From NCBI RefSeq assembly GCF_000337135.1, contig NZ_AOIN01000092.1:53084-89055 (forward strand): DNA of 35,972 bases, read 5' to 3'. The stretch's first letter is position 1; every line of letters starts with the position of its first letter. The translations under genes and the position numbers were made by a program. Positions 7,629-22,504 of this stretch are shown one piece after another. This stretch comes from Natrialba chahannaoensis JCM 10990. Its GTDB lineage: Archaea > Halobacteriota > Halobacteria > Halobacteriales > Natrialbaceae. The notes under the pieces are model-generated. The model was not told where the DNA came from. It saw only the letters and a list, made by a program, of their open reading frames with translations, and did not search any database.

Positions 7629-10190
7629 ATGTCTCAGTCTCAACCACCCGCTTCAGATACAGCAGCCCCTCTCCTCACCGGCACGCTCCACGTCCTCCCC
7701 TTCGGCGGCGGCTCGCTCGCCGCGCGTGTCGCAAGAATCTACTCGAGTACCCTCGAACACGAACCAGTAGATGGCGACCCGCGGAACGTGCTGGTGCTCA
7801 AGCGGTTGCCGACGGCGATCGACGAGTTTGCGGCGTCGTTGCGCGACGAAGTCGGGCTTGAAGGGCGACCGAACGTGAAGTCGCTGCCCCGGCATGCGAC
7901 GGCGGTTGTGGAGGAGGCCGAGCCGGAGTTGACGCGCCTGTCCTACGAGGAGCGGATCGAGTTTCTCGCGCGGGTGCTCGACGGCTACGACTGGTCGTCG
8001 TACTTCGAGCGGGCGAGCGAGCACGATTCGTTCGGTCGGGACGTGGGGCAGTTGTTGTTGGATGCGACGTGGAACGGTGGGTTCGGTGTGGATGTAGATG
8101 CGGATACAGATACAGATGCAGATGCGGATCTGGGTGCCGATGGGGCTGTGGACACCGAGAGTGATGAGACCAGTGAAAGCGACGGCTCCGCCACAGACGA
8201 CGATCACGACTACGACGACTACCTCCGGGAACTGGCCGACGTCAACGCCTCCTTCCACGACCATCTCGCGGAGCGCAACCTGGCGGAGCAGGCCCAGACG
8301 ATCGAACGCGCAATCGCGGCACTCGAACGCGAGGCGATTCGTGAGCGGATCGAGCGCGAGTTCGACGCGGTGCTCGTCGTCGAGTACGAGGAGTGTGGCG
8401 ATCTCGACCGGGAGTACCTGCGTGCGCTCACCCGGAACGTCGACCTGATCTGCGTCGCCGAGGAGCACGCGAGCATCGAGCGGACGAAGACTGAGGTGGG
8501 ATCGGTTCGGCGATTTGCAGACGGACTCGAGATCGTCGATCACACCGCCGACGGCGCGCAGAAAGGGGAAACCGACGCGATACTCGGTGTTGTCTCGGAC
8601 GGCGGAACGGCAGCAACACAGCCGGACACGGTGTCCGAACCGGGACGAGTCGGTCAGCCGTTCGGCGCGTTTCTTGCGACTGGACGGCCGACTCGCCGGG
8701 GAGAGAACGGCGAGCTTGCAGAAACCGAAGGTCACGCTTCGGCCACCGCTGCGCGCGTAATCAGTGAACCGACGCTCGACCAGCAGGTCGAGACCGTCGC
8801 GAACGAAATCGAGTACCTTCGACAGAAACAGGGCCTCGAATACGAGGACGTGGCCGTCCTGCTCCGTTCCATCGGGAACCCCGCGCCGCGCGTTCGCAGA
8901 GTGCTCCAGCACGCCGGGGTGCCGACGGCCTCGGCCGGCGTCAACGGCCTCGAACAGGACCTCGCCGTCCGGGAACTGCACGCACTCGCCCAGTACCACA
9001 TCGATGACCGCGAGCGGGCCTACGACCTGCTCGCGGCACGAGTGCCGGATCTCACCGAAGACCTCGTGCAGCGCTGTGTCGTCAGGAACTCGGTTTCCAA
9101 GAGCCTGAAACGCTGGATCGTCACGACGGACCTCAAACGCCGGATCGCCGAGGACGCCGACCCGATCGACGCCAGAGAACAGTTTCGAAACGTCTCCCGG
9201 CTCCTCTCGATCGCCGAATTCGTCGACGAGCAGGACATCCTCGCGGGCGACTGGATCCAGTTCGTCACCATGCTCGAGCGGGCGATCACCTACGACGCGC
9301 CCTACGCCCACACCGCCGAGGTCGCCGTCCCCGAAGGCGGCGTCACCGTCGGTGACGTGGGGCTCGTAAAACACGATAGCCGGCGCGCCGTCTTCCTGCT
9401 CAACGTCGTCGACGGCGAGTACCCGGGCAGTGAACCGCTCTCGCCGCTCTTTCCGACCGCCTGGATTAAACGGATGGACGGCTACCCGGCCGTCACGAAT
9501 CCGAGTCCGGAGGCCGTCGCGGAGACGTACGCCACCGTCAACGTCGAGGAGATTACGGACAACGCGTTCGAGCGCTATCACGCCGAACGGACGCGCCGCC
9601 AGCTCGCGATCGGTGCCCGCGCCGCCGAGGAGTACCTTTACTTCTGTACCTACCGGCAGACGGACGGCTCGGTTGGCCGCCTGCAACACCGCTCACGGTA
9701 TCTGCACGCAATCGACGAACACCCACATCCCGCGCTCTCGCTCGCTGACCTCGGCGGTGGCGGAGCGGACGGCTGCGAGGGCGAGAGTGATGGCGATGGC
9801 GACGGCGAGAACGAGACCATCCCGTCGCGCGACCTTTACACCCTCGGCAGCGCCTCCGCCGAAATCCTGTCCCAGCCCTGGAACGCCCTCGAAACGGTCC
9901 AGGCCGAAGCCAGCACCGGCGGCGAGGTCGCACTCGAGTCCACTGAAAAAACACTGGCTGCGATCCAGCGGGTACTCGAGGAGAGCGAGGATGTGGACCC
10001 GCGATTCGAGCGGGCGGTCGAGACGCAGTTCGATCTGGCGAGAGGGGCGATTCGGCCGGAGAGTGGTGAGGTCGGTGAGAGTAGTGAGAGTGGTGGTGGT
10101 AGTGGGAGTGATAGGAGTGAGCGAGTAGATGGCGGTGGACGAAGAGATGACGACAGACTGGGCGGAAACGACGGAGGTGAGACGCGATGA
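7629..10190 (+). CDS. AddB/RecC-like subunit with degenerate helicase domain
   Basis: 853 residues, first gene of an overlapping three-gene operon. The fold order follows AddB/RecC: an opening strand and loop 'LHVLPFGGGSLAARV' at about 20-35 where AddB has its Walker A, here without GKT; a Walker B-like strand 'FDAVLVVEYEECGDLD' near 245-260; 'EDVAVLLRS' near 405; 'VGLVKHDSRRAVFLLNVVDGEYPG' near 575-600; and 'RTRRQLAIGARAAEEYLYF' near 655, matching helicase motifs V and VI. So it probably does not hydrolyse ATP and acts, like RecC, as a scaffold or DNA-scanning subunit. An acidic repeat (DADTDTDADAD) interrupts residues about 155-195. The C-terminal nuclease of bacterial AddB is absent and is encoded by the next gene. 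The specific AddB link is inference from layout. Confidence 0.7.
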   Translation: MSQSQPPASDTAAPLLTGTLHVLPFGGGSLAARVARIYSSTLEHEPVDGDPRNVLVLKRLPTAIDEFAASLRDEVGLEGRPNVKSLPRHATAVVEEAEPELTRLSYEERIEFLARVLDGYDWSSYFERASEHDSFGRDVGQLLLDATWNGGFGVDVDADTDTDADADLGADGAVDTESDETSESDGSATDDDHDYDDYLRELADVNASFHDHLAERNLAEQAQTIERAIAALEREAIRERIEREFDAVLVVEYEECGDLDREYLRALTRNVDLICVAEEHASIERTKTEVGSVRRFADGLEIVDHTADGAQKGETDAILGVVSDGGTAATQPDTVSEPGRVGQPFGAFLATGRPTRRGENGELAETEGHASATAARVISEPTLDQQVETVANEIEYLRQKQGLEYEDVAVLLRSIGNPAPRVRRVLQHAGVPTASAGVNGLEQDLAVRELHALAQYHIDDRERAYDLLAARVPDLTEDLVQRCVVRNSVSKSLKRWIVTTDLKRRIAEDADPIDAREQFRNVSRLLSIAEFVDEQDILAGDWIQFVTMLERAITYDAPYAHTAEVAVPEGGVTVGDVGLVKHDSRRAVFLLNVVDGEYPGSEPLSPLFPTAWIKRMDGYPAVTNPSPEAVAETYATVNVEEITDNAFERYHAERTRRQLAIGARAAEEYLYFCTYRQTDGSVGRLQHRSRYLHAIDEHPHPALSLADLGGGGADGCEGESDGDGDGENETIPSRDLYTLGSASAEILSQPWNALETVQAEASTGGEVALESTEKTLAAIQRVLEESEDVDPRFERAVETQFDLARGAIRPESGEVGESSESGGGSGSDRSERVDGGGRRDDDRLGGNDGGETR

Positions 10191-11197
10191 CGCCACCATC
10201 GTCTGTTGAAAGTGAGGCAGACGACGAGTCGGCTGCGCAAGCGGGCCAGCCCGTCGTCACCGCTGACGCGCTCGCGACACACCTTGTCTGCCCGCGCCAG
10301 TACGAGTTCGCGTTCGAACGCCCACTCTCGGCGCGCAAAACGAGTACCGACCGGGTTCGCGACCGTCGTCGGCAACTCCTCCGGCGGTCGATCATCGCCG
10401 GGCTGCGCTCGGAGGCGGATTCAGATGAGGGTCGTGTCGAGGCCGCACTCGAGTGGCTCAATCACGAGTGGCGACAGGCCAGCGCCGGCGACCGGCAGCC
10501 GTACATCGCAGACGCACAGGAGCAGTACGATGCGAACGCGCTGGCGGCTGCGGTGGAGGCGTACTTCGAGAACGGCGGGCACGGACACGCCGAGCGGCTA
10601 GTCGAGGCGGACACTGTGGTCAGCTACGAGCGCGACGGTATCCGGTACGAGGCGACCGTCGATGCTGTAGTCGAGCGCGACAGGGGCTATCTCGGCATCA
10701 GGTACGTCCCGACGCTACACGGCGTGTTGCAGGTCAGCTGGTCTGACACGCACGTCCGGGAGTTCGTGGACGGCCAGTCGTACTATCCGCGCCAGATCGG
10801 TAGCTTCGTCAGGGCCGGTGTCGCAATTCGGGGCCTGAAGGCCGAGTACGGCTTCGATCTGCCCTGTGACTTCGCCTACGTCGCGCCGCTGGCTGAGAGT
10901 CGGCCGGCCTACGAGTCCGAGTCGGGCGTGCGCGTCGACGTGGAGCAACGGCACTTCGAGGACGCCTTCGAGGAGGAGACGCGGGATCTCGTGGACCTGA
11001 TCGAGGAGCGAGCCGCAGCAATTGGCGACGGGAAGACCGACCCGCGGGCGTGGCGGTTTGAGAACATTACCAATTCGGCCTGCCAGTACTGCGCCTATCG
11101 GGACGCCTGTCCCGATCGGATGGGTGCCGAACTCGCGTTTATCGACCGGGAGCCGACTCGCGGTGAGCGTGGTGAACGAGGTGAGATCGATGACTGA
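10187..11197 (+). CDS. Cas4/AddB-type Fe-S PD-(D/E)XK-fold protein, probably catalytically inactive
   Basis: 336 residues, overlapping the AddB-like stop by four bases (ATGA) and the AddA-like start by eight. Cys35 (LVCPRQYEF) and Cys299, Cys302 and Cys308 (C-x2-C-x5-C) have the spacing of the Fe-S clasp of AddB, Cas4 and Dna2. Between them, ATVDAVV supplies the first active-site Asp (about 158). The strand that should carry D/E-x-K reads YLGIRYVPT, with neither the acid nor the Lys. The helix after it, 'QIGSFVRAGVAIRGLKAEYG', matches the post-catalytic Q-xxx-Y helix. I infer a structural, DNA-binding nuclease-fold subunit: the detached C-terminal domain of AddB. A PD-(D/E)XK family call is secure; loss of activity is inference. 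Confidence 0.75.
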   Translation: MTPPSSVESEADDESAAQAGQPVVTADALATHLVCPRQYEFAFERPLSARKTSTDRVRDRRRQLLRRSIIAGLRSEADSDEGRVEAALEWLNHEWRQASAGDRQPYIADAQEQYDANALAAAVEAYFENGGHGHAERLVEADTVVSYERDGIRYEATVDAVVERDRGYLGIRYVPTLHGVLQVSWSDTHVREFVDGQSYYPRQIGSFVRAGVAIRGLKAEYGFDLPCDFAYVAPLAESRPAYESESGVRVDVEQRHFEDAFEEETRDLVDLIEERAAAIGDGKTDPRAWRFENITNSACQYCAYRDACPDRMGAELAFIDREPTRGERGERGEIDD

Positions 11198-14100
11198 GCG
11201 TGAGACGACGACTGATACCGCGGACGCTGTCGCACCGACCAGTGAGACGGACGGCGAACCCGACGCCGCGGCGCTCGAGCCAAAGGGCAACCAGCCAGCC
11301 GTTATCGACGCAAGCGGTGGCGCACACACCGTCGAAGCTGTCGCCGGCTCCGGCAAGACGACGACGATGGTCAAGCGCCTGCAAGCCGAAATCGAGGAGC
11401 GCGACGTTGCGCCCAACCGGCTGCTGGTGCTCACCTTCGCGAACGAGGCCGCTCACACGATTCAGGAGAAACTCCGCGAGGCGCTCGGCCCGCAGGTCGC
11501 CTTCGATATCGATGTCTACACCTACCACTCGTTTAGCTCGAAACTTCTAACGGAGTACGCCTACCACGTCGGCGTCTCGCCCGAGTTCGACCTCGTCACC
11601 GAGGAAGACCGTCCGCAACTGATCGAGTCCGTCTACGGCGACGTCGACTTCTCGTTCGTCGCAGCCGGCTCGCCCTCTGCCGGCGGCACGAGCGACCAGA
11701 CGCTCTCCGCGCTCACCTCGTTCATCGAGGCGATGCGCCGCGAGGCCGTCACCCCGGCCGATATTCGATCGTACCTCCCCAGTGACGAGGACCTGCGGGA
11801 TCTGCTCGGGCTCGTCACCGATCTCGAGGAGATGGCCCATCAGGTCATCAACGTCGACGCGAACGACCTCTTCGGAAACGCGGACAACCTCGCCGACCGC
11901 TGTGACCGCCTCCCCCGAGTCTACCGCGCGAAAGCCCGCCAGTTCGACGGCGAGGGTCGGGTTCACTCCGCCGTCAGCGACCACCTCGAGGCGATGGCCG
12001 AAACGGCAGAGAACATGGCCGACCACCTCCGAACTGAATCCGACCTCGAGTGGCAGGCGTTTCGGCTCCCCGAGGCGATGTTCGAGGGCGAGCGGGGGCC
12101 ACTGACCTCGATCACGCAGACGCCGATGGGACGGTTGTCGAACTACGTTCACATGCTCCGGCGGGCGCGGGCGTTCGTCGGCGCGTACGAGGCCTATCTC
12201 GGTGCGCTCGACGAGCGCAACGCCTTCGACTACGACGAACTCATCCACCGGACCGTCGACCTGCTTCGTGACGAGCAGGTCCGTGACGACATCCTCGCCG
12301 AGTGGGACGCCGTTTACTGCGACGAGTTTCAGGATACGGACGAGTCCCAACTCGAGCTGGTCGAGGAACTGCGCGACGGGCTCGACATCATGGTCGTCGG
12401 CGACAGCGACCAGGCCATCCACGAGTGGCGCGGGCAGGACCCCGAGAATATGTCGAAATTGCCCGAGTCGTTCGAGGAGATCGGACTGGATCTGAACTTC
12501 CGGTCGCGCCAGCCGATCCTCGATCTCGCGACGAATCTCGATCCTGAAAAGGACGAGATCGAGGCCGACAAGGAGCCGAACCCACCGAACGTTTTCAAAG
12601 TCGACAGCGAGGGCGAGCGCACACCGGCGCAGGTGAGCACGACAATTTCACACCTCCTCACGGGTCGGTTTGAGGATGTTCCCGAGCGCAAACTCGAGGA
12701 TATCGCAGTGCTCGTCCGCCGAAACCAGAACGCTCGCGATATCGCAGCCCAGCTAGATCGGGACAGCATTCCCTACACCCTCTCGAGTGACGCCGCTGGC
12801 GAACTCGGCCACGGCGTGCGGACGGTACTGTCGTACTTCCGGGTTCTCGTGGAGCCCGGCGACGACGTGAGCTGGCAGCGCGTCCTCTTGCACCTCTATC
12901 GCGTTCCCGAGGGCGACGTGGATACGCTGTTGCGAGCCGGCGAGACCGTTCCGGCGGGGTACGACGCGCTTCCAGATCCGGTCGCCGAACTCTGCTGTCC
13001 CGACCGTGTCCGCGAGGCGCTCACGGACTACGACACGCTTCGATCGGTCTCGGACACCCACTCGATCTCCGAGCTCTACCGGCATTTCAAGCGCGAGACG
13101 CGCATCGACTGGTTCCTCCGCGAGCACGACCGGGACGCCCTCGCCAACGTCGAGCGCCTGATCGAGGCGTTCAACGACAGTCCCGTCCAGTCCGAACTAA
13201 CACCGGCGTTCGTCGACTACCTGGAGCGCCAAGCCCACCTGCTCTCGGCCGACGACGAGACGGCGACTAGCCCCGGTTCACAGTCCGAAAATGCCGTCGA
13301 CGTCATGACGATCCACCAGGCGAAGGGCCTCGACTTCGATACCGTTCTGCTCCCCTTCCTCACCGAATCCGAATTCGGCCACATCACTCTCGCGAACTAC
13401 CAGCGAGACCTCTACCGCTACGACGTGCTCGTCGACGACGTGCAGGGCGAGCTGGCCGACCCGCTGCGGGCCGACTGCAGCGACGACCAGATCGCAGAAG
13501 AGTGGCGCGTCCTCCACGTCGCACTCACCCGAGCGAAGGAGCACCTGTTCCTCTTCGGCAACGACGTCGAGGAGCAGGGACCCGGTGCGGACATGCTGGA
13601 CGAGCACCTGCCCAAGGGGGCCGGCGGAACCGACGAAAACGGCGGCACCGGCGGAACGAGCGAGACCCCGATCCACTGGGCTGCCGAGGGACCACGTTTC
13701 CCCGTCTGGGACGCACTCATGGACAGCTACGACGAGATTGCGGCCGACACACCCGACGCCGTCCGGGACTACACAGACGCCGTCAACCGCGGCGTCGACG
13801 AGGACCCGGGGACGATCACGTACTACCAGACCGAGGTCTCGACCGACGAAGCACTCGAGACGGTACTCGAGTTCGCCGACGAGGTTGTCGCCGGGACGCT
13901 CGCTGATGGCGACAGCGCCTCAAATCCGAACACCGCCCGCTTCGCCGACGCCCCCCTCGGCACCAGCGTCGACGTCGAACTCGCCCGCCAGCACAGCCAC
14001 ACCGCACTCGAATCCGTTCGCAACTGCGAGCGAAAGCACGTCCTCGATCACGTGGTCGATGCGTTCCCCGACCCAACCCCAGCTACCGGGGGGTCAGCAG

Positions 14101-14789
14101 AGGTGACCCAGGCCGACGTTGGCTCGCTCTTCCACGATGTTGCCGAACTCGCCTACTGGCGCGGCTACGACAGCAAAGCCGAGTGGCGTGAGGCCTGCGA
14201 ATGGGTCGCACGCAGCCGCGACCTGACGAACGCGCTGGGGCCAGCACTCGAGTGTATCGACCGCTACTTCGAGACCGACGTGCCGGAGTGGCCGGCGGTC
14301 GGGTCCGAGGTGCCGATCGCCGTCGACGGCGACGAAATCGCGGACGTGGACGGCGACATCGCGGCTATAGACGACCTTGCAGCCATCGAAGGCGACATAA
14401 CCGGCTACGTCGACAGCGTTCGCCGCCACCCAGACGGCGGTCTCGTCGTGCTCGACTACAAAACGAGCCAAGCGCAGAAGGAACTGGAGACGAGCCACCA
14501 ACTTGAGCTCTACGTCCGCGCCTGTCAGGACCGCTTCGACGACCCGATCAACCACGCTGGCTACGTCTACGTCGGCGACGCCGGGCCAGCAGTCCAGGTT
14601 TTCTCGGTCGACGAACTGGCCACGCTGTGGGAGTCGGTACTCGAGGATCTGGCGACGGCGGACGGCTCGTCGTTCGCGAACGCGACGCCGGGGCCACACT
14701 GTCAGTTCTGTCCGCACCGGTCGCTTGGCTGTTCCGAGGGCAAAGACGAGTCACCGTCTCTGGATGCGTTCCAGATCGATGGCCAGTGA
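11190..14789 (+). CDS. AddA-like UvrD/REP helicase-nuclease
   Basis: 1199 residues from the ATG at 11190 (MTERETT); the frame runs further upstream inside the previous gene, so the overlap decides the start. All superfamily 1A helicase motifs are present: Walker A EAVAGSGKTTT (about 49-59), TFANEAA, YCDEFQDTDESQ (Walker B), VVGDSDQAIHEWRG (III), 'VMTIHQAKGLDFD' (V) and 'VALTRAKEHLFLF' (VI). The C-terminal PD-(D/E)XK nuclease is complete: His982, Asp1075 (GYVDSV), Asp1089-Tyr-Lys1091 and QLELY. Unlike bacterial AddA it also has an Fe-S set: Cys946 and Cys1171, Cys1174, Cys1181. It should unwind and resect double-strand ends; with the two genes before it, it forms the operon's only complete motor and nuclease. 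Confidence 0.9.
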   Translation: MTERETTTDTADAVAPTSETDGEPDAAALEPKGNQPAVIDASGGAHTVEAVAGSGKTTTMVKRLQAEIEERDVAPNRLLVLTFANEAAHTIQEKLREALGPQVAFDIDVYTYHSFSSKLLTEYAYHVGVSPEFDLVTEEDRPQLIESVYGDVDFSFVAAGSPSAGGTSDQTLSALTSFIEAMRREAVTPADIRSYLPSDEDLRDLLGLVTDLEEMAHQVINVDANDLFGNADNLADRCDRLPRVYRAKARQFDGEGRVHSAVSDHLEAMAETAENMADHLRTESDLEWQAFRLPEAMFEGERGPLTSITQTPMGRLSNYVHMLRRARAFVGAYEAYLGALDERNAFDYDELIHRTVDLLRDEQVRDDILAEWDAVYCDEFQDTDESQLELVEELRDGLDIMVVGDSDQAIHEWRGQDPENMSKLPESFEEIGLDLNFRSRQPILDLATNLDPEKDEIEADKEPNPPNVFKVDSEGERTPAQVSTTISHLLTGRFEDVPERKLEDIAVLVRRNQNARDIAAQLDRDSIPYTLSSDAAGELGHGVRTVLSYFRVLVEPGDDVSWQRVLLHLYRVPEGDVDTLLRAGETVPAGYDALPDPVAELCCPDRVREALTDYDTLRSVSDTHSISELYRHFKRETRIDWFLREHDRDALANVERLIEAFNDSPVQSELTPAFVDYLERQAHLLSADDETATSPGSQSENAVDVMTIHQAKGLDFDTVLLPFLTESEFGHITLANYQRDLYRYDVLVDDVQGELADPLRADCSDDQIAEEWRVLHVALTRAKEHLFLFGNDVEEQGPGADMLDEHLPKGAGGTDENGGTGGTSETPIHWAAEGPRFPVWDALMDSYDEIAADTPDAVRDYTDAVNRGVDEDPGTITYYQTEVSTDEALETVLEFADEVVAGTLADGDSASNPNTARFADAPLGTSVDVELARQHSHTALESVRNCERKHVLDHVVDAFPDPTPATGGSAEVTQADVGSLFHDVAELAYWRGYDSKAEWREACEWVARSRDLTNALGPALECIDRYFETDVPEWPAVGSEVPIAVDGDEIADVDGDIAAIDDLAAIEGDITGYVDSVRRHPDGGLVVLDYKTSQAQKELETSHQLELYVRACQDRFDDPINHAGYVYVGDAGPAVQVFSVDELATLWESVLEDLATADGSSFANATPGPHCQFCPHRSLGCSEGKDESPSLDAFQIDGQ

Positions 14790-15769: not shown

Positions 15770-15967
15770 ATGCCGATCCACCAGTTGACACAAGTTGCTC
15801 GTACGTCGGGCGGTATTGTGCTTCCGAAGAGCGAGCTTCGGGCGCTTGGATTGGTTAATGAAGAGGATAATGTGAAAGATCAGCCAGTATGGGTGACGCG
15901 AACTGATACTGGGACATGGGAAGTTTCCGTTATTGGTCCGGAAGAATATCCGGAGTCAAATAGCTAA
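15770..15967 (+). CDS. AbrB/SpoVT-like small protein
   Basis: 65 residues. 'VARTSGGIVLPKSELRALGL' is the swapped-hairpin motif (basic residue, then 'LPK.LR..LGL') of AbrB/MazE-type DNA-binding proteins, here followed by 'DQPVWVTRTDTGTWEVSVIG', as in short haloarchaeal relatives of this class. Such proteins often act as antitoxins or as regulators in plasmid-derived DNA, but no cognate toxin gene adjoins it on the same strand. Its codons are more AT-rich than those of the core genes. A TATA box sits at the right distance. Confidence 0.6.
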   Translation: MPIHQLTQVARTSGGIVLPKSELRALGLVNEEDNVKDQPVWVTRTDTGTWEVSVIGPEEYPESNS

Positions 15968-16087
15968 ACCACTGCTACTGTCCCTCAATCTCGAAAGCAG
16001 CAGTGAATTACAGAGATAAGCCACTACAATTTTCCTGATTTTCCAACGCATATCTTAGTCACAGAAAGCAGGGATTTGTTGGGAAGT

Positions 16088-16097
16088 TTTATTTATA
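16088..16097 (+). promoter_or_regulatory. TATA box for the 34-residue ORF
   Basis: TTTATTTATA ends 27 bases before the ATG at 16125. This spacing supports transcription starting at or just before that codon. Confidence 0.5.
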
Positions 16098-16124
16098 GCA
16101 ATCCCATAGGCATTCACAGTAACA

Positions 16125-16229
16125 ATGACCCTTCAAGAAGCTGTTCGTGATGTCCGTGAACAGTACGATATCCCGGACAACGAGCGTCTCCGGGAGTTGG
16201 CGCAATCGAATGCGCATCTCCGTGATTAA
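16125..16229 (+). CDS. 34-residue small protein
   Basis: A 35-codon frame reading MTLQEAVRDVREQYDIPDN and ERLRELAQSNAHLRD. It is predicted to be two amphipathic helices split by IPDN, a shape typical of small antitoxins or DNA-binding helices. It has its own TATA box 27-37 bases upstream, so expression is plausible. It ends three bases short of the stop of the oppositely oriented Fic-like gene, so the two are convergent rather than an operon. I do not recognise a family. Confidence 0.45.
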   Translation: MTLQEAVRDVREQYDIPDNERLRELAQSNAHLRD

Positions 16230-16232
16230 TTC

Positions 16233-17126
16233 TTATTCCGTTTCAGAACTACTGTTTTCGGTACGCAGGAAGTCGATGAATCCCTCTTCCGATAGTGCCG
16301 GCTCCTGAACGAGATTTCCTACTCCACCTCGAGTGGCCAACTCCTCCGCGAACTCAATGCAGTGTGCCTCGTGCAACTCGGCGTATTTCTCCCACGCCTC
16401 GTGGTAGTGCATATCGAGGTCGTAGTCATCGAGCGGAATCTCGATATCGTGTTTTCGGCGGACGGTTTCACACCCGATCCGTTTCAGCGTGAGAAAATAC
16501 AGGTTATGTCGTCGTACAGTTAGCAGCCGCTTTGATTCGATGATATAGGGATCGACCCATTCACGCCATTCGTACTCTTCGGTATGGGTTTTCGGTGTTT
16601 CAAAATTCGCTCCAGCAGCCTCGAGATAGGTCTGTGCCATCGTGATCCCAGTTCGGTGATTCGCGTTCGGTAGCGAGTGTCTCAGGATTAGATTTGACAT
16701 CAAACTTCCAGCAACGTCCGTCGCCGATCCGTTCCACGAAACGTGATTGATCGCTTCGGGGACTCGCTTAATCTCGAGATTCTTGTAGATCGCAAGTTCA
16801 CTACCGTTCTCCTGTTCTTCCTGTTGCATCTCGGTGAAGAACTGGAGTAACCAGATAGCGATGACCCGGCTCGTCGGATCCATTGGCTCTAAGTCTTCCT
16901 CCAACTGAGCGGGGCTAATTTCCCGATCGAGATCGTCAGCCGTTCCCGACACACCCGGCGTATAGAGGACACGCACGTCTCCGTCCGGAAGCGGGTAGTC
17001 CATCACCTTGACATCGGCCGTTGGGTCGCTGAGTTTGTCCTCGAACGCATCCGGATCCGTACTGACATCCTCGAGCGAATAGTTGATATCATCCGGATGG
17101 TGCTGCTGGACAACTCGAGTCGTCAT
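16233..17126 (-). CDS. Fic/Doc-like protein with variant active-site motif
   Basis: 297 residues. HSLPNANHRTG at 150-160 aligns with the Fic/Doc core H-x-F-x-(D/E/N)-(G/A)-N-(K/G)-R, and is nearest to Doc (H-x-F-x-D-A-N-K-R). It is followed by a helix ITMAQTYLEAAG, as in Fic folds, and preceded by 'VSWNGSATDVAGSLMSNLILR'. Fic enzymes AMPylate and Doc phosphorylates target proteins. Here Asn replaces the metal-binding acid, His replaces Lys and Leu replaces Phe, so activity is uncertain. The N-terminal 80 residues and C-terminal 120 are unlike short Doc proteins. Codon use is AT-rich, consistent with transfer. A TATA-like GATATATCC lies just upstream, near 17154-17162. Confidence 0.6.
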   Translation of the reverse strand: MTTRVVQQHHPDDINYSLEDVSTDPDAFEDKLSDPTADVKVMDYPLPDGDVRVLYTPGVSGTADDLDREISPAQLEEDLEPMDPTSRVIAIWLLQFFTEMQQEEQENGSELAIYKNLEIKRVPEAINHVSWNGSATDVAGSLMSNLILRHSLPNANHRTGITMAQTYLEAAGANFETPKTHTEEYEWREWVDPYIIESKRLLTVRRHNLYFLTLKRIGCETVRRKHDIEIPLDDYDLDMHYHEAWEKYAELHEAHCIEFAEELATRGGVGNLVQEPALSEEGFIDFLRTENSSSETE

Positions 17127-17338
17127 CTGATTAACTTACTACGAGGAAGGGAGACGGATATATCCATTGCCCTCAGCGTCTCATAGTGTCCGCAAAGCCT
17201 GTCCTCGAGGGCATTGTGATCGAGATCGTGGCCAACTCGAGTACCAACAACCATATTCTTCACCGACTGTCAGGACACAACTGAGTATCGAGGATACTGA
17301 GGTGATTTAAGCCGCTTCCTCGTCGTGAGTGGGCGGCG

Positions 17339-17722
17339 ATGTCCGAGAAGTACGACAGGTCTCGGACAGAATCACCCCGATTCGGCCCTCGAGGACCACC
17401 GAAAAAACTAGATTACTTGCGGTTTGTGTTCGGGATGCAGACATCACGGACACATGAATTTTCAACAGCACGAGAAGCGCGACGACATGAAAGTATGGCC
17501 CAGTTAGGACGAAAGATGGCACTTCTCGAGGCTGCCGACGGAACCCAGCAGCGAATCGCCTTCGCGCTCGGGGCGCGCTGCGGGCTCCGATCACACGAAG
17601 TGCTCGACATTGCTCCTGCGGACATCGTAGATACCGACGCCGGCACGATGCTACGTGTCCGGCATGGGAAAGGAGGCCAGTTTCGCGAGATACCTGTTTC
17701 ACGAGGGCTGGCAAACATATGA
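17339..17722 (+). pseudogene. Truncated tyrosine recombinase/integrase
   Basis: 127 residues in the open frame. 'IAFALGARCGLRSHEVLDIAPADI' carries the first catalytic Arg (GLRSHE) of phage-type integrases and 'MLRVRHGKGGQFREIPV' the catalytic Lys strand. The frame then stops, before the H-x-x-R and Tyr boxes that make up the rest of the active site. The upstream part ('ESPRFGPRGPPKKLDY') is not a usual SAM-like core domain, so the 5' end may also be a fusion. It lies about 1.2 kb from the tRNA-derived attachment repeat and is probably the dead integrase of the element. Confidence 0.7.
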
Positions 17723-18460: not shown

Positions 18461-18914
18461 AAGAGAGGGTGGAGTCGCTGAGAGGCGGCTCCTAATCACG
18501 TGCGGCCGACGCGTACGTCCACACTGCTGCCCCGCTGTGGGGCTATCAGTGATCGGGTGCACGCGTCAACCCCGCATCCGTCGGCGGACACTGGCTTCCA
18601 CCACCCGAACGCTCACGGAACTACCTACGCCGACGCTGACGGTCGACGGTAGCTAACCACCCTATCGTGGCCGTCCCGTCGCCGCGCGGCCGCTCGGCCG
18701 TTGAAACTCTCGAGAAACAGTCACAGAACGGTTCGAACCTACTTCTCTCTTCTTGCTGTACGGAGTCAATCGTAGTTGTTCGCAGAAGCCGACGACTCGA
18801 GACTCAATCACGGTACTCACACGAAGGGCGGTGGTTTCGCTGGGATTGAGCAAACCTGAAGGGTGTGCGATGTTCGTTGAGTCCACAACTGAAGAGTGAA
18901 ACGACGTAAAGAAA
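18461..18914. other. Gene-free stretch between repressor promoter and att repeat
   Basis: Open frames exist on both strands, but their translations are Arg/Ser-rich shadow-type sequence and I recognise no family. It may contain the degraded end of the integrated element. Confidence 0.35.
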
Positions 18915-18938
18915 TGGACTCGCCGGGATTTGAACCCG
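18915..18938. repeat. Attachment-site repeat: duplicate of tRNA-Ala 3' end
   Basis: The 24 bases starting TGGACTCGCCGGGATT are identical to 19045-19068, the 3' end of the intact tRNA-Ala (T arm and acceptor strand), in the same orientation and 130 bp apart. Integrases that target tRNA genes leave such a direct repeat at the far end of the insert. The body of the island lies on this side. Confidence 0.75.
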
Positions 18939-19044
18939 AAGGAAGACGGTCGTTCGCTTCGCTCACGCTGCGACTTCCAGGGCTTCAAATCCGCCATCGA
19001 CGACGATTCGCGGCGCTCACGAATTTGTTCTCGCCGCAGAATAG

Positions 19045-19116
19045 TGGACTCGCCGGGATTTGAACCCGGGGCCTCTCCCATGCCAAGGGAGTGATCTACC
19101 TCTGATCTACGAGCCC
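19045..19116 (-). tRNA. tRNA-Ala (anticodon GGC)
   Basis: On the minus strand the 72-nt gene starts GGGCTCG and ends CGAGTCC plus discriminator A. The 7-bp acceptor stem has one G-U pair. The anticodon arm is CTCCC-TTGGCAT-GGGAG, with anticodon GGC. The T arm is CCGGG-TTCAAAT-CCCGG. CCA is not encoded. A TATA-like GGTTTATCTA lies about 35-45 bases upstream. It decodes GCC/GCU alanine codons. Confidence 0.93.
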
Positions 19117-19479
19117 GCTTCGCAATACGCACTTTCCCACGGGAATAGATAAACCCCTCGAAATCGTCGGGTCGGCCCTGTGGTTGTCACACAGGGGTAC
19201 TCGAGTACACCGCCGTTTCCCACATCCCAATCACGCCCACGACGGTGTCCGGTTCACGACGTGCACCGACTGTGACCGCTGTCTAGAAACCCTTTAGTCC
19301 GTGCCGCGGGAAGCGACGATGGGAAGCGCACGGCCGCAAATCTGACAGTGCCACTCACTTGGGTGGCTTGGGATTGCGGAAGTGCATCTTGCACGGAGCC
19401 GGATTGCGGTCGACTGGGTCATGCGATCCAGTGCGAGCGCTATCCATCCGAGCGGTCAGTGCGGTTCCTATCCTCACCA

Positions 19480-19950
19480 ATGGCACGAATGCATACCCGC
19501 CGTCGTGGCTCGTCCGGTTCGGACAAGCCAACGGCAGACGAACCACCGGAGTGGAGCGACGTCGACCCAGCAGATGTCGAAGAACGGGTCGTCGAACTGG
19601 CAGCACAGGGTCACGACCCAAGTCAGATCGGCATCAAGCTGCGTGACGAAGGCGTCACCGGCACGCCCGTCCCTGACGTGAAGCTGGTGACCGACAAGAA
19701 GATCACCGAGATTCTCGAGGAGAACGACGCCAAGGCGGACGTTCCCGAGGATCTTCGGAACCTGATGAAGCGCGCAGTTCGACTGCGCGAGCACGTCCAG
19801 GAGAACCCACAGGACTACCAGAACAAGCGCTCCCTGCAGAACACGGAGTCGAAGGTTCGACGCCTCGTCGACTACTACCGAGGTAACGAGCTTGAGCCGG
19901 ACTTCACGTACTCCTACGAGGTTGCGGTCGACCTCCTCGAGGAGCACTGA
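19480..19950 (+). CDS. rps15: 30S ribosomal protein S15
   Basis: 156 residues beginning MARMHTRRRGSSGSDKP, the universal archaeal/eukaryotic S15 (S13e) start, followed by the archaeal N-terminal domain 'SDVDPADVEERVVELAAQG', 'SQIGIKLRDE' and the rRNA-binding S15 core 'DLRNLMKRAVRLREHV', 'NKRSLQNTESKVRRLVDYY'. It binds the central domain of 16S rRNA. The ATG at 19480 is set by the conserved N-terminus; the open frame runs further upstream without meaning. It heads a cluster with the RecJ-like gene, pcc1 and rps3ae. Confidence 0.97.
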   Translation: MARMHTRRRGSSGSDKPTADEPPEWSDVDPADVEERVVELAAQGHDPSQIGIKLRDEGVTGTPVPDVKLVTDKKITEILEENDAKADVPEDLRNLMKRAVRLREHVQENPQDYQNKRSLQNTESKVRRLVDYYRGNELEPDFTYSYEVAVDLLEEH

Positions 19951-20050
19951 GTTCTGAGCTGGGAGCGACGGCAGACAGGAGGAGCTGGAACCTAGACGCT
20001 GCGTCCGTAGCGTCCGCAGGTGACCCGCGACCGCGAACACGACACCCACA

Positions 20051-21442
20051 ATGTCCACGAACGGCCACCCGGATCAGGAATCGGAAACCGAGTTCGGTTC
20101 CGACGCCGACACCGCTGTGACAGCCGCCACCGCCATCGAGAGCGCCGGCTTCGTCCGCGTCATTACGCGGGCCGACGGCGACGCCCTCGCGGCCAGCGGC
20201 CTGCTTACGGCGGCACTCTCGGCGACGAACACGCCGTTCCAGGTGACCGTCGGTCGGACAATCGCCGACCGAACCGAGCGCGCAACGCGCCACGCTGACA
20301 CTGGCGACGCCAGTGACGAACTGGCCGTCGTCTTCGGCACGGTCGACGAACCGGCGCGCGAGCACGCCATCCGCCTCGATTCCGACGAGCGGCCGGCCAC
20401 ACTCGCCGCAGCGGATACCGTTCGTGAACTCGGTTCGAGGGACTCGGACGACTCGAGTACCCCGGCCGAGACACGGACCCAGACACCGACCCGGACACCG
20501 ACCGACGAACCAACCAGAACCGAGCCCACACTCGATCCGGTGCTCGCACTCGCAGGCCTCGTCGCCGCCGGGGTCGATCCCGGTGCTGGCGAGAGCGAGT
20601 GGGTACTTGAGTCCGCACGCGAGCGCGGCCTCGTCGAACGCCGACCGGGTGTCGCGGTGCCGACCGCGGACCCGGTAGACGGGCTGGCACACTCGACCCA
20701 CCTGTGTGCGCCGTGGTCTGGCGACCTCGAGGCGATCCGGGAGGCACTCTCGCCGACCGGACTCGACCTCGACCAGCCCGAGACGTTCGACGGGGACGAC
20801 CACCGGACGCTCGGCTCACTCGTCGCGCTCGATGTCGTCGGCGCGGACGACGCAACGGAGACGGCGGCGACGTCGATCCAGCGCGTCCTCCGGCCGTACG
20901 CGATCACGAGCGACGAGTACGCGTTCGCAACTGTCGGCGGCTACGCCGCCGTCCTCGAGGCGACCGCCCGCGCGGAGCCCGGCACGGGAGCCGCGCTGGC
21001 GATGGGTCTCGACGCTCGGGAGCCAGCGCTCGCCGCCTGGCGGGCATACGGCTCGCGCGCACACGCCGCACTCAAGTCGGCCTCGATGGGGCGCTACGAC
21101 GGGCTGTTGGTTGTCGACATCGACGGCGGGCCGGTCGAAGCGGTCGCACAGATCGCACTCGCGTACCGCTCGCCGGAGCCGACGGTGCTCGCCGTGGGTT
21201 CGGGCGAAGCGTCGCTTGCGACTCGCGAAACTGGGCCGAGTTCGGGCTCGATCGCAGCCACCGTGGAAGCGATCGTTCGCGACCTCGCCGACGATGGCGT
21301 CCAGGCGACGTACGACGTGGGTCACCGACGTGGCTATCTGCGCTTCGGTGCGGACGAGGCGGCGTCGGAGCAGGAGTCACAGGCGCAGGACGCAGTGGCG
21401 GACGACTCGACGATCATCGCAGCAGTGAGAGGACACTACTGA
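20051..21442 (+). CDS. RecJ/Cdc45-like protein, DHH phosphoesterase-related
   Basis: 463 residues. The opening 'FVRVITRADGDALAASGLL' resembles motif I of RecJ nucleases, keeping two Asp (42 and 44) but with Arg in place of the usual His. I find no DHH motif. The C-terminal part ('SMGRYDGLLVVDIDGGP', 'TVLAVGSG', 'ATYDVGHRRGYLRFGADEA') resembles a DHHA1 domain but lacks the GGHxxAAG signature. A Thr/Pro/Arg-rich spacer lies around 137-160. In other archaea a RecJ-family gene in this position, beside rps15, has been linked to the replicative CMG/GINS complex. An inactive Cdc45-like role is inference. The stop is two bases before pcc1. Confidence 0.65.
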   Translation: MSTNGHPDQESETEFGSDADTAVTAATAIESAGFVRVITRADGDALAASGLLTAALSATNTPFQVTVGRTIADRTERATRHADTGDASDELAVVFGTVDEPAREHAIRLDSDERPATLAAADTVRELGSRDSDDSSTPAETRTQTPTRTPTDEPTRTEPTLDPVLALAGLVAAGVDPGAGESEWVLESARERGLVERRPGVAVPTADPVDGLAHSTHLCAPWSGDLEAIREALSPTGLDLDQPETFDGDDHRTLGSLVALDVVGADDATETAATSIQRVLRPYAITSDEYAFATVGGYAAVLEATARAEPGTGAALAMGLDAREPALAAWRAYGSRAHAALKSASMGRYDGLLVVDIDGGPVEAVAQIALAYRSPEPTVLAVGSGEASLATRETGPSSGSIAATVEAIVRDLADDGVQATYDVGHRRGYLRFGADEAASEQESQAQDAVADDSTIIAAVRGHY

Positions 21443-21444
21443 CC

Positions 21445-21870
21445 ATGCCGGCACACACGAACACGAACGACTCGCTCGAACACGCGACGGCGACGATCCG
21501 CACGTCCCACGACGATCCCGATCTCGTTGCGCGGGCGCTACGCCCGGACAACACTGACGAGATGGAGACCGTCACGGACGGTGACAGCGTCGTCACGCGG
21601 ATCGAGCGCGAGTCGACGAGTGGGCTGCACTCGACGGTCGACGACTACGTCGTCAATCTCGAGGTTGCAGTCGACGTTGTTCGCACGGCACGCGAGGCCG
21701 GCGTGGCTACTGACGCGACTGCGCAGTCTCCAGCACCATCCGTTTCACCCGCTTCATCCACTTCATCCACTTCGGATGCAGACGCAGCCGACGAACAGCG
21801 CGATAACCCGACGGACACGGGTACTGTGTCCGACACAGACACCGACAACACACACGATACCAATGAGTGA
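21445..21870 (+). CDS. pcc1: KEOPS complex subunit Pcc1
   Basis: 141 residues. The first 85 are the Pcc1 fold: 'HATATIRTSHDDPDLVARALRPDN', then 'VVTRIERES', then 'LHSTVDDYVVNLEVAVDVV'. Pcc1 dimerises within KEOPS, which makes the t6A modification at position 37 of ANN-decoding tRNAs. The last 55 residues are a Ser/Thr/Pro/Asp low-complexity tail absent from typical Pcc1. It starts two bases after the RecJ-like stop and overlaps rps3ae by eight bases, so the four genes probably form one transcript. The ATG at 21445 is chosen because it directly follows the preceding stop. Confidence 0.88.
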   Translation: MPAHTNTNDSLEHATATIRTSHDDPDLVARALRPDNTDEMETVTDGDSVVTRIERESTSGLHSTVDDYVVNLEVAVDVVRTAREAGVATDATAQSPAPSVSPASSTSSTSDADAADEQRDNPTDTGTVSDTDTDNTHDTNE

Positions 21871-22504
21871 ACGTTCAGTCTCACGTGCGAAACAGGAAAA
21901 GCGGTGGTACACCGTGCTCGCTCCGGAGCAGTTCGACCGGACGGAGCTCGGCGAGACCCCCGCCGACGAACCGGAAAAGGTCTACGACCGAACCATCGAA
22001 ACGACGCTTGGCGAACTCAACAACAACGCCAGCGAGAACAATACGAAGCTGACCTTCAAGATCACTGACGTGGGCAGCGACGCCGCATACACGGAGTTCA
22101 TGGAGCACTCCCTGACCCGTGACTACCTGCGCTCGCTCGTCCGCCGCGGTGCCTCGAAGATCGAGGCCTACGTCACCGTCCTCACGACGGACGACTACCG
22201 TGTCCAGATCCAGCCCGTTGCCTTCACGACGAAGAAGGCCGACGCGAGTCAGGAGAAGGCCATCCGCAACCAGATGGTGCAGATGATCGAAGCGGCGGCC
22301 GAAGAGCGCACCTTCGAGGAACTGATCGACAGCGTCGTCGAAGGCCGACTCTCCTCGGCAATCTACGGTGAAGCCAAGACGATCTACCCGCTTCGCCGCG
22401 TCGAGATCCAGAAGGCAACGCTCGAGGCCCGTCCCGAGGAAGTCGCCGAAGAGGAAGCGACCTCCGTCGACGTCGACGACGAAGACGTCACGGCCGACGA
22501 CTAA
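21863..22504 (+). CDS. rps3ae: 30S ribosomal protein S3Ae
   Basis: 213 residues starting MSERSVSRAKQEKRWYTVLA, diagnostic of archaeal S3Ae (eukaryotic eS1). Then come 'TTLGELNNNASENNTKLTFKI', 'HSLTRDYLRSLVRRGASKIEA' and 'LRRVEIQKATLEARP'. The tail is acidic. It binds near the mRNA exit of the small subunit. The ATG at 21863 overlaps the end of pcc1 by eight bases, indicating coupled translation. Confidence 0.97.
   Translation: MSERSVSRAKQEKRWYTVLAPEQFDRTELGETPADEPEKVYDRTIETTLGELNNNASENNTKLTFKITDVGSDAAYTEFMEHSLTRDYLRSLVRRGASKIEAYVTVLTTDDYRVQIQPVAFTTKKADASQEKAIRNQMVQMIEAAAEERTFEELIDSVVEGRLSSAIYGEAKTIYPLRRVEIQKATLEARPEEVAEEEATSVDVDDEDVTADD

Follow-up and report, generated by a model that had tools for sequence, protein, structure and literature searches.

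Organization of the three-gene locus

The DNA analyzed here is a stretch of 35,972 nucleotides (the window) from the haloarchaeon Natrialba chahannaoensis JCM 10990. It carries three consecutive forward open reading frames (ORFs) at positions 7629-10190, 10187-11197 and 11190-14789, which encode proteins of 853, 336 and 1199 amino acids (aa). The original prediction, made from the sequence alone, had described them as overlapping genes for a complex of the AddAB/RecBCD type. The ORFs and both overlaps, of 4 and 8 bases, were confirmed in the sequence, as were the helicase motifs, the nuclease motif of gene 3 and the iron-sulfur (Fe-S) cysteines that gene 2 and gene 3 each carry. The motif GGTGAG stands a few bases ahead of both downstream starts. 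In nearly all relatives the starts likewise overlap or abut, the few apparent gaps between genes being an artifact of picking a later methionine as the start. The promoter scan used bacterial models, which are not informative for archaeal DNA. The layout is as follows.

7629..10190, + strand: gene 1, 853 aa, predicted ATPase-dead superfamily 1 (SF1) helicase-fold subunit, AddB/RecC-like (profile, fold of the AlphaFold2 [AF2] model, no Walker A)
10187..11197, + strand: gene 2, 336 aa, stand-alone PD-(D/E)XK/Cas4-type Fe-S domain, predicted pseudonuclease (PDDEXK_1 match, AF2 fold, motifs)
11190..14789, + strand: gene 3, 1199 aa, SF1A motor, active by its motifs, with an intact Fe-S PD-(D/E)XK nuclease in the same chain (domain matches, motifs)
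10176..10181, + strand: GGTGAG, Shine-Dalgarno-like, 5' of gene 2 (sequence)
10187..10190, + strand: overlap of genes 1 and 2, 4 bases, ATGA (sequence)
11180..11185, + strand: GGTGAG, Shine-Dalgarno-like, 5' of gene 3 (sequence)
11190..11197, + strand: overlap of genes 2 and 3, 8 bases, ATGACTGA (sequence)

Gene 1 resembles AddB and lacks a Walker A motif

Single-sequence searches with gene 1 were nearly blind, and PDB sequence searches with the single proteins P0001 and P0002 gave nothing useful. Individual gene 1 members match the ADDB_N/addB_Gpos models weakly. A profile of the gene 1 family searched against the PDB found Bacillus subtilis AddB as the best chain (E = 2.4e-6), with UvrD1 next, and hhalign gave gene 1 a probability of 96% against unsplit archaeal AddB (E = 3.5e-9) and of 21% against AddA. 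The AF2 model of gene 1 (predicted local distance difference test [pLDDT], 72.8; predicted TM-score [pTM], 0.73) matches UvrD/PcrA and AddB folds with E-values of about 1e-16 to 1e-18, and its highest query-normalised TM-scores, 0.50-0.53, are those of AddB chains. Both comparisons bear out the earlier suggestion that the 853-residue protein is AddB/RecC-like. No Walker A P-loop was found in any of the 72 aligned relatives, and motif II reads [VA]-V-E-[FY]-E-E across the 72 members. Because the profile and fold matches point to AddB and the Walker A motif is absent, we regard gene 1 as an ATPase-dead, AddB/RecC-like subunit with the inactivated SF1 helicase fold that is characteristic of AddB.

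Gene 2 has an Fe-S nuclease fold without the catalytic motif

The PDDEXK_1 domain was recognized in 23 of 23 gene 2 relatives. The AF2 model of gene 2 (pLDDT, 81) matches the nuclease folds of Cas4, AddB, AdnA and RecC, and the gene 2 profile aligns to the start of the C-terminal nuclease of AddB. Every one of the 75 members compared has the same four cysteines (C35, C299, C302 and C308) as well as D159. The relevant features are these.

10289-10291, + strand: fourth Fe-S cysteine of gene 2, C35 (invariant, 75/75)
10694..10711, + strand: residues 170-175 of gene 2, GIRYVP, where the sister clade has DYK; lost catalytic motif (alignments)
11081..11110, + strand: C-terminal Fe-S cysteines of gene 2, C299-x2-C302-x5-C308 (invariant, 75/75)

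In the window, IRYV occupies residues 171-174 in place of the catalytic D-x-K. The motif is missing from all 50 members of the clade to which the window belongs (e.g., IRYV or VRFV), whereas DYK is kept in all 25 members of the sister clade. On a gene 3 tree of 73 loci this split needs one change; the tree was a quick one with some long branches, and a single event is its simplest reading rather than proof. Among five divergent gene 2 members, VRLT, YDYV, IRYR or LQYQ replaces D-x-K.

Judged from these residues, gene 2 of the window's clade is probably dead as a nuclease. The catalytically active nuclease of AddB is thus absent from this clade, although its motif is present in the sister clade, and we rejected an active Cas4-like nuclease for the window's clade since D-x-K is lost. 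Gene 2 is predicted to bind an Fe-S cluster, since it has the Fe-S cluster cysteines expected of AddB. It had been taken for a detached Cas4-like Fe-S nuclease: the fold and profile matches to the AddB nuclease, RecC and Cas4 and the four cysteines agree with that description, but the absence of the catalytic motif had been overlooked.

Gene 3 encodes a motor-nuclease outside the AddA-RecB group

Gene 3 matches UvrD-helicase (7e-53), UvrD_C (1.8e-30) and PDDEXK_1 (2.3e-20), and it carries the following motifs.

11337..11360, + strand: Walker A, AVAGSGKT, residues 50-57 (sequence motif)
12321..12335, + strand: helicase motif II, DEFQD, residues 378-382 (sequence motif)
14025-14027, + strand: fourth Fe-S cysteine, C946 (invariant)
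14454..14462, + strand: nuclease DYK, residues 1089-1091 (invariant)
14700..14732, + strand: Fe-S cysteines C1171-x2-C1174-x6-C1181 (invariant)

No full-length relative has lost the ATPase or nuclease catalytic residues or any of the four cysteines, apart from one in which E986 is changed to A. By its motifs, gene 3 therefore has the active SF1A motor with an intact nuclease that is expected of AddA. It equally has the composition of a UvrD-Cas4 fusion, a UvrD motor with a C-terminal Fe-S PD-(D/E)XK nuclease. The Fe-S cysteines are absent from archaeal AddA and from Escherichia coli RecB; an AddA homologue from Deinococcus does carry them. On gene 3, unlike on real AddA, PcrA-type models score above those for AddA, and the gene 3 profile scores best on UvrD-Cas4 fusions; indeed, the profiles of all three genes score higher on these fusions than on AddA or AddB. 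A motor tree, which was quick and has long branches, grouped AddA with RecB (support 95) and left gene 3 on a branch of its own, without placing it firmly with the known UvrD-Cas4 fusions or apart from them. Because of the Fe-S nuclease, the PcrA and UvrD-Cas4 scores and this branching, we conclude that gene 3 is not a plain AddA. The proposal of a complete AddA-type helicase-nuclease therefore stands as regards intact motor and nuclease motifs but not as regards the type.

Linkage, distribution and selection

The three genes are adjacent and in the same order at 77 named haloarchaeal loci and about 60 more from whole genomes, apparent exceptions being contigs that end early or fragments. A gene 1 match was found in 20 of the 41 genomes searched, with genes 2 and 3 following in 22 of 22 fetched relative loci; a further 40 loci, many picked from weaker matches, have the same arrangement. 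Across the class, gene 1 is present in 140 of 391 genomes, and a manual count of the listing for the window's family gave 89 of 101. Gene 3 tracks gene 1, single fragments excepted. A plasmid copy at L182:5204-6856 (a replicon of 315592 bases, as in Halobacterium sp. DL1) has a gene 3 of only 550 aa that appears broken.

The nearest named relatives of the window locus are Natrialba species. Against five of these, the ratio of nonsynonymous to synonymous substitution (dN/dS) was 0.17-0.25 for gene 1, 0.11-0.27 for gene 2 and 0.09-0.19 for gene 3. All three are under purifying selection and form an inseparable set. Given the shared order at all 77 named loci, contig ends aside, and dN/dS values of 0.09-0.27, the arrangement is not due to chance; the values for gene 2 (0.11-0.27) also indicate that the putative pseudonuclease is under constraint.

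Genomic context differs between the two clades

The window's clade sits among ordinary chromosomal and housekeeping genes. Upstream of the window operon are genes for an M24 peptidase, a prephenate-dehydrogenase-like protein, a methyltransferase and SurE; downstream lie the remains of a decayed element, a tRNA-Ala gene and genes for ribosomal proteins. In other genera of the family, uvrA, NUDIX or FolCP genes lie near the three genes. No neighborhood shared across the Natrialbaceae was found, flanks varying by genus, and many clusters in this comparison were antisense ORFs without meaning. In Natrialba the set is single-copy and chromosomal, without a bacterial-type AddB beside it, and TIGR02773, the Gram-positive AddB model, has no match in the window's genome, although the control search worked. 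Neither a prokaryotic Argonaute (pAgo) nor a phospholipase D (PLD) gene neighbors the window locus.

The sister clade is often plasmid-borne, and its neighbors are of another kind. In 10 of its 27 named loci, pAgo and PLD genes directly precede gene 1, and in several relatives the PLD stop lies 5 bases from the gene 1 start. One such five-gene operon (L049:1465-12747, which equals L121) encodes a long pAgo, a PLD-family protein and then the three AddAB-like proteins, with the nuclease motif of gene 2 intact, and the same operon occurs at nine other loci. The haloarchaeal ago-PLD pair is the APAP (pAgo-AgaP) defense system, for which only "a helicase-encoding gene" nearby has been mentioned (PMC11442185); the three genes of the sister clade directly follow the ago and PLD genes in the manner of these operons. 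A survey of pAgo operons reported UvrD-type proteins with PD-(D/E)XK motifs (PMC6299218). Genes for an Mre11-like exonuclease and a structural maintenance of chromosomes (SMC) ATPase adjoin some sister-clade loci, as do BREX-5 pglZ or restriction-modification genes. On a Natrinema zhouii plasmid (L209:5263-16387) and at one further locus (L050), a DNA repair exonuclease gene (Mre11-like) and an AAA/SMC ATPase gene lie directly upstream of the three genes, possibly forming a five-gene end-processing or defense set.

Elsewhere in the window, a decayed integrated element (15771-17722 and 18913-19116) contains an AbrB-like ORF, a tyrosine-recombinase fragment and a partial tRNA-Ala 3' end, the last at about 18914, beside the tRNA gene at 19044-19116. 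A cluster at 19348-22504 comprises an S15-like gene, a gene for a 463-aa protein that has no Pfam match but may be of the RecJ/DHH type, and the gene for ribosomal protein S3Ae.

Comparison with known systems

In common with bacterial AddAB, the locus encodes a motor-dead helicase-fold subunit, an Fe-S nuclease-fold domain and an SF1A motor-nuclease together. However, the AddB part is split into two proteins at every locus, the second nuclease is catalytically lost in the window's clade and gene 1 has no Walker A motif, whereas AddB is unsplit in true archaeal AddAB; in addition, the motor subunit carries an Fe-S nuclease of its own and falls outside the AddA/RecB branch. Further archaeal genomes of the phylum, probably those of methanogens, have a two-gene pair in which AddA accompanies an undivided AddB of about 1030-1070 aa, and another two-gene AddB-AddA pair is found on haloarchaeal plasmids such as Halobacterium salinarum pHS3 (L216:2931-9615); L222 and four more loci provide additional examples. 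The split form thus stands apart from the two-gene AddAB of this organism class. We rejected membership in AddAB proper, given that AddB is divided, D-x-K is missing and gene 3 branches elsewhere in the motor tree. On Deinococcus deserti plasmid 2 (L215:4968-8252), an intact AddB homologue is followed by an AddA homologue whose annotation is divided among three successive ORFs.

AddAB has two nucleases, one for each strand, and RecB has a single nuclease for both. The single intact nuclease, the RecC-like dead helicase and the dead nuclease fold recall RecBCD, from which the set differs in having no RecD-type second motor and in its dead nuclease, a separate protein that keeps its Fe-S cysteines; no further helicase gene that could encode a RecD-type (5'-3') motor is present in the window's operon, unlinked RecD-like genes not having been searched for. 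Gene 2 folds onto the nuclease of AdnA, and mycobacterial AdnAB likewise pairs SF1 helicase-nuclease chains, but both of its chains are fused helicase-nucleases, unlike the three-gene set. UvrD-Cas4 fusions have the domain order and Fe-S pattern of gene 3 (PMC5704561); gene 3 differs in being coupled to two partners, one resembling a dead helicase and the other a free-standing nuclease. Gabija was rejected, as the GajB matches in PADLOC reflect generic UvrD similarity only and the operon has no GajA-type gene.

Discussion

We think it probable that the three genes specify one AddAB/RecBCD-like heterotrimer, with a single motor and a single nuclease, that processes double-stranded DNA ends. This reading draws on the invariant gene order, the likeness of gene 1 to AddB and of gene 2 to AddB, Cas4 and RecC, the lack of a Walker A motif in gene 1, the loss of D-x-K with the cysteines kept, the conserved residues of gene 3, the dN/dS of gene 2, the absence of a TIGR02773 AddB and the occurrence of the set in most members of the family (89 of 101 genomes). 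In such a complex, gene 3 would be the sole ATP-driven SF1A motor, translocating 3'-5', and the sole working nuclease, and gene 1 would act as a motor-dead scaffold that holds and sorts the second strand like AddB and RecC. Gene 2 may dock at, and close, the position of the AddB C-terminal nuclease, and in the window's clade it would be a pseudonuclease retained for a structural or DNA-binding role. All cutting would then come from gene 3, a one-nuclease state like that of RecBCD. The analysis itself establishes the gene content, the folds, which motifs are lost or retained, the obligate linkage and the purifying selection, while assembly, strand polarity, biological role and end resection are inferred.

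Several observations weigh against this proposal. The similarity of gene 1 to AddB is remote, and UvrD-type helicases match its fold at similar E-values; the motor tree keeps gene 3 apart from AddA and RecB; the defense contexts of the sister clade allow a role other than repair; and NurA is also in the genome, so that the three-gene set may not be the principal enzyme of resection. A Rad50 zinc-hook search of the genome gave no match, which we do not take as meaningful.

The set may instead be primarily an anti-invader machine, in which pAgo-PLD, Mre11/Rad50-like SMC or BREX-5 partners cut or sense foreign DNA and the trimer degrades it, the Natrialba copy being domesticated or stand-alone. 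This view is favored by those relatives, several in number, whose pAgo and PLD genes lie just 5 bases before gene 1 (pAgo in 10 of 27 named sister-clade loci), and by plasmid loci that adjoin BREX-5 pglZ, restriction-modification genes, or DNA repair exonuclease and AAA ATPase genes; however, the window's clade has everyday chromosomal genes as neighbors (SurE and methyltransferase here; uvrA, NUDIX and FolCP in other genera) and is near-universal in its family, and we consider a primary anti-invader function doubtful. Under the favored heterotrimer, the Natrialba set would most likely serve break repair or the removal of linear DNA.

Descent is a separate matter. If a bacterial-type addBA had been acquired, AddB could have split between the helicase-like part and the nuclease, and an Fe-S cluster could have been gained by AddA. 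In unsplit archaeal AddB, gene 1 does align to the N-terminal part and gene 2 to the C-terminal part, in the order of the genes, and two-gene AddAB is known from methanogens and haloarchaeal plasmids. We nevertheless regard true AddAB descent as unlikely: the gene 3 motor lies outside the AddA+RecB group (95% support), the profiles of all three genes prefer UvrD-Cas4 fusions and no fused gene 1-2 intermediate was seen. A tree of nuclease domains did not separate an AddB from a UvrD-Cas4 origin of gene 2. The original prediction that AddB is split in two is therefore sound as a description of what genes 1 and 2 match, but a split after descent from bacterial AddB is unproven. Stand-alone UvrD-Cas4 fusions exist elsewhere (PMC5704561) and gene 3 has all of the motifs needed to work alone, but a mere operon of separate enzymes, with genes 1 and 2 as regulators or remnants, is very improbable in view of the strict co-occurrence, the overlapping starts and the purifying selection on genes 1 and 2.

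It can tentatively be proposed that haloarchaea built an AddAB/RecBCD-like machine independently. A UvrD-Cas4-type fusion may have been duplicated, one copy then losing its motor and coming apart into two proteins, to give a portable end-processing core placed behind DNA-cutting or DNA-sensing partners (pAgo-PLD, Mre11/Rad50-like); in one lineage, where it is near-core, it may have passed from a two-nuclease to a one-nuclease state.

In conclusion, a conserved haloarchaeal three-gene machine, with a predicted Fe-S cluster, resembles AddAB with one subunit cut into two proteins. The observation of the original prediction is upheld, and its interpretation is supported in part, with three corrections: gene 2 is probably dead, gene 3 is not AddA and the origin of the split is unproven. 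Within the library searched, we found no paper that treats the three genes as one system, and the haloarchaeal end-resection enzyme beyond Mre11-Rad50 is poorly defined (PMC7776575). The set links repair enzymes to archaeal Argonaute defense. In the window's clade, nature has in effect run an experiment on the difference between two nucleases (AddAB) and one (RecB). Because the proposed trimer is near-universal in a large family and its second nuclease is retained in some relatives and lost in others, it would offer a direct test of the role of each nuclease in AddAB/RecBCD-type machines.

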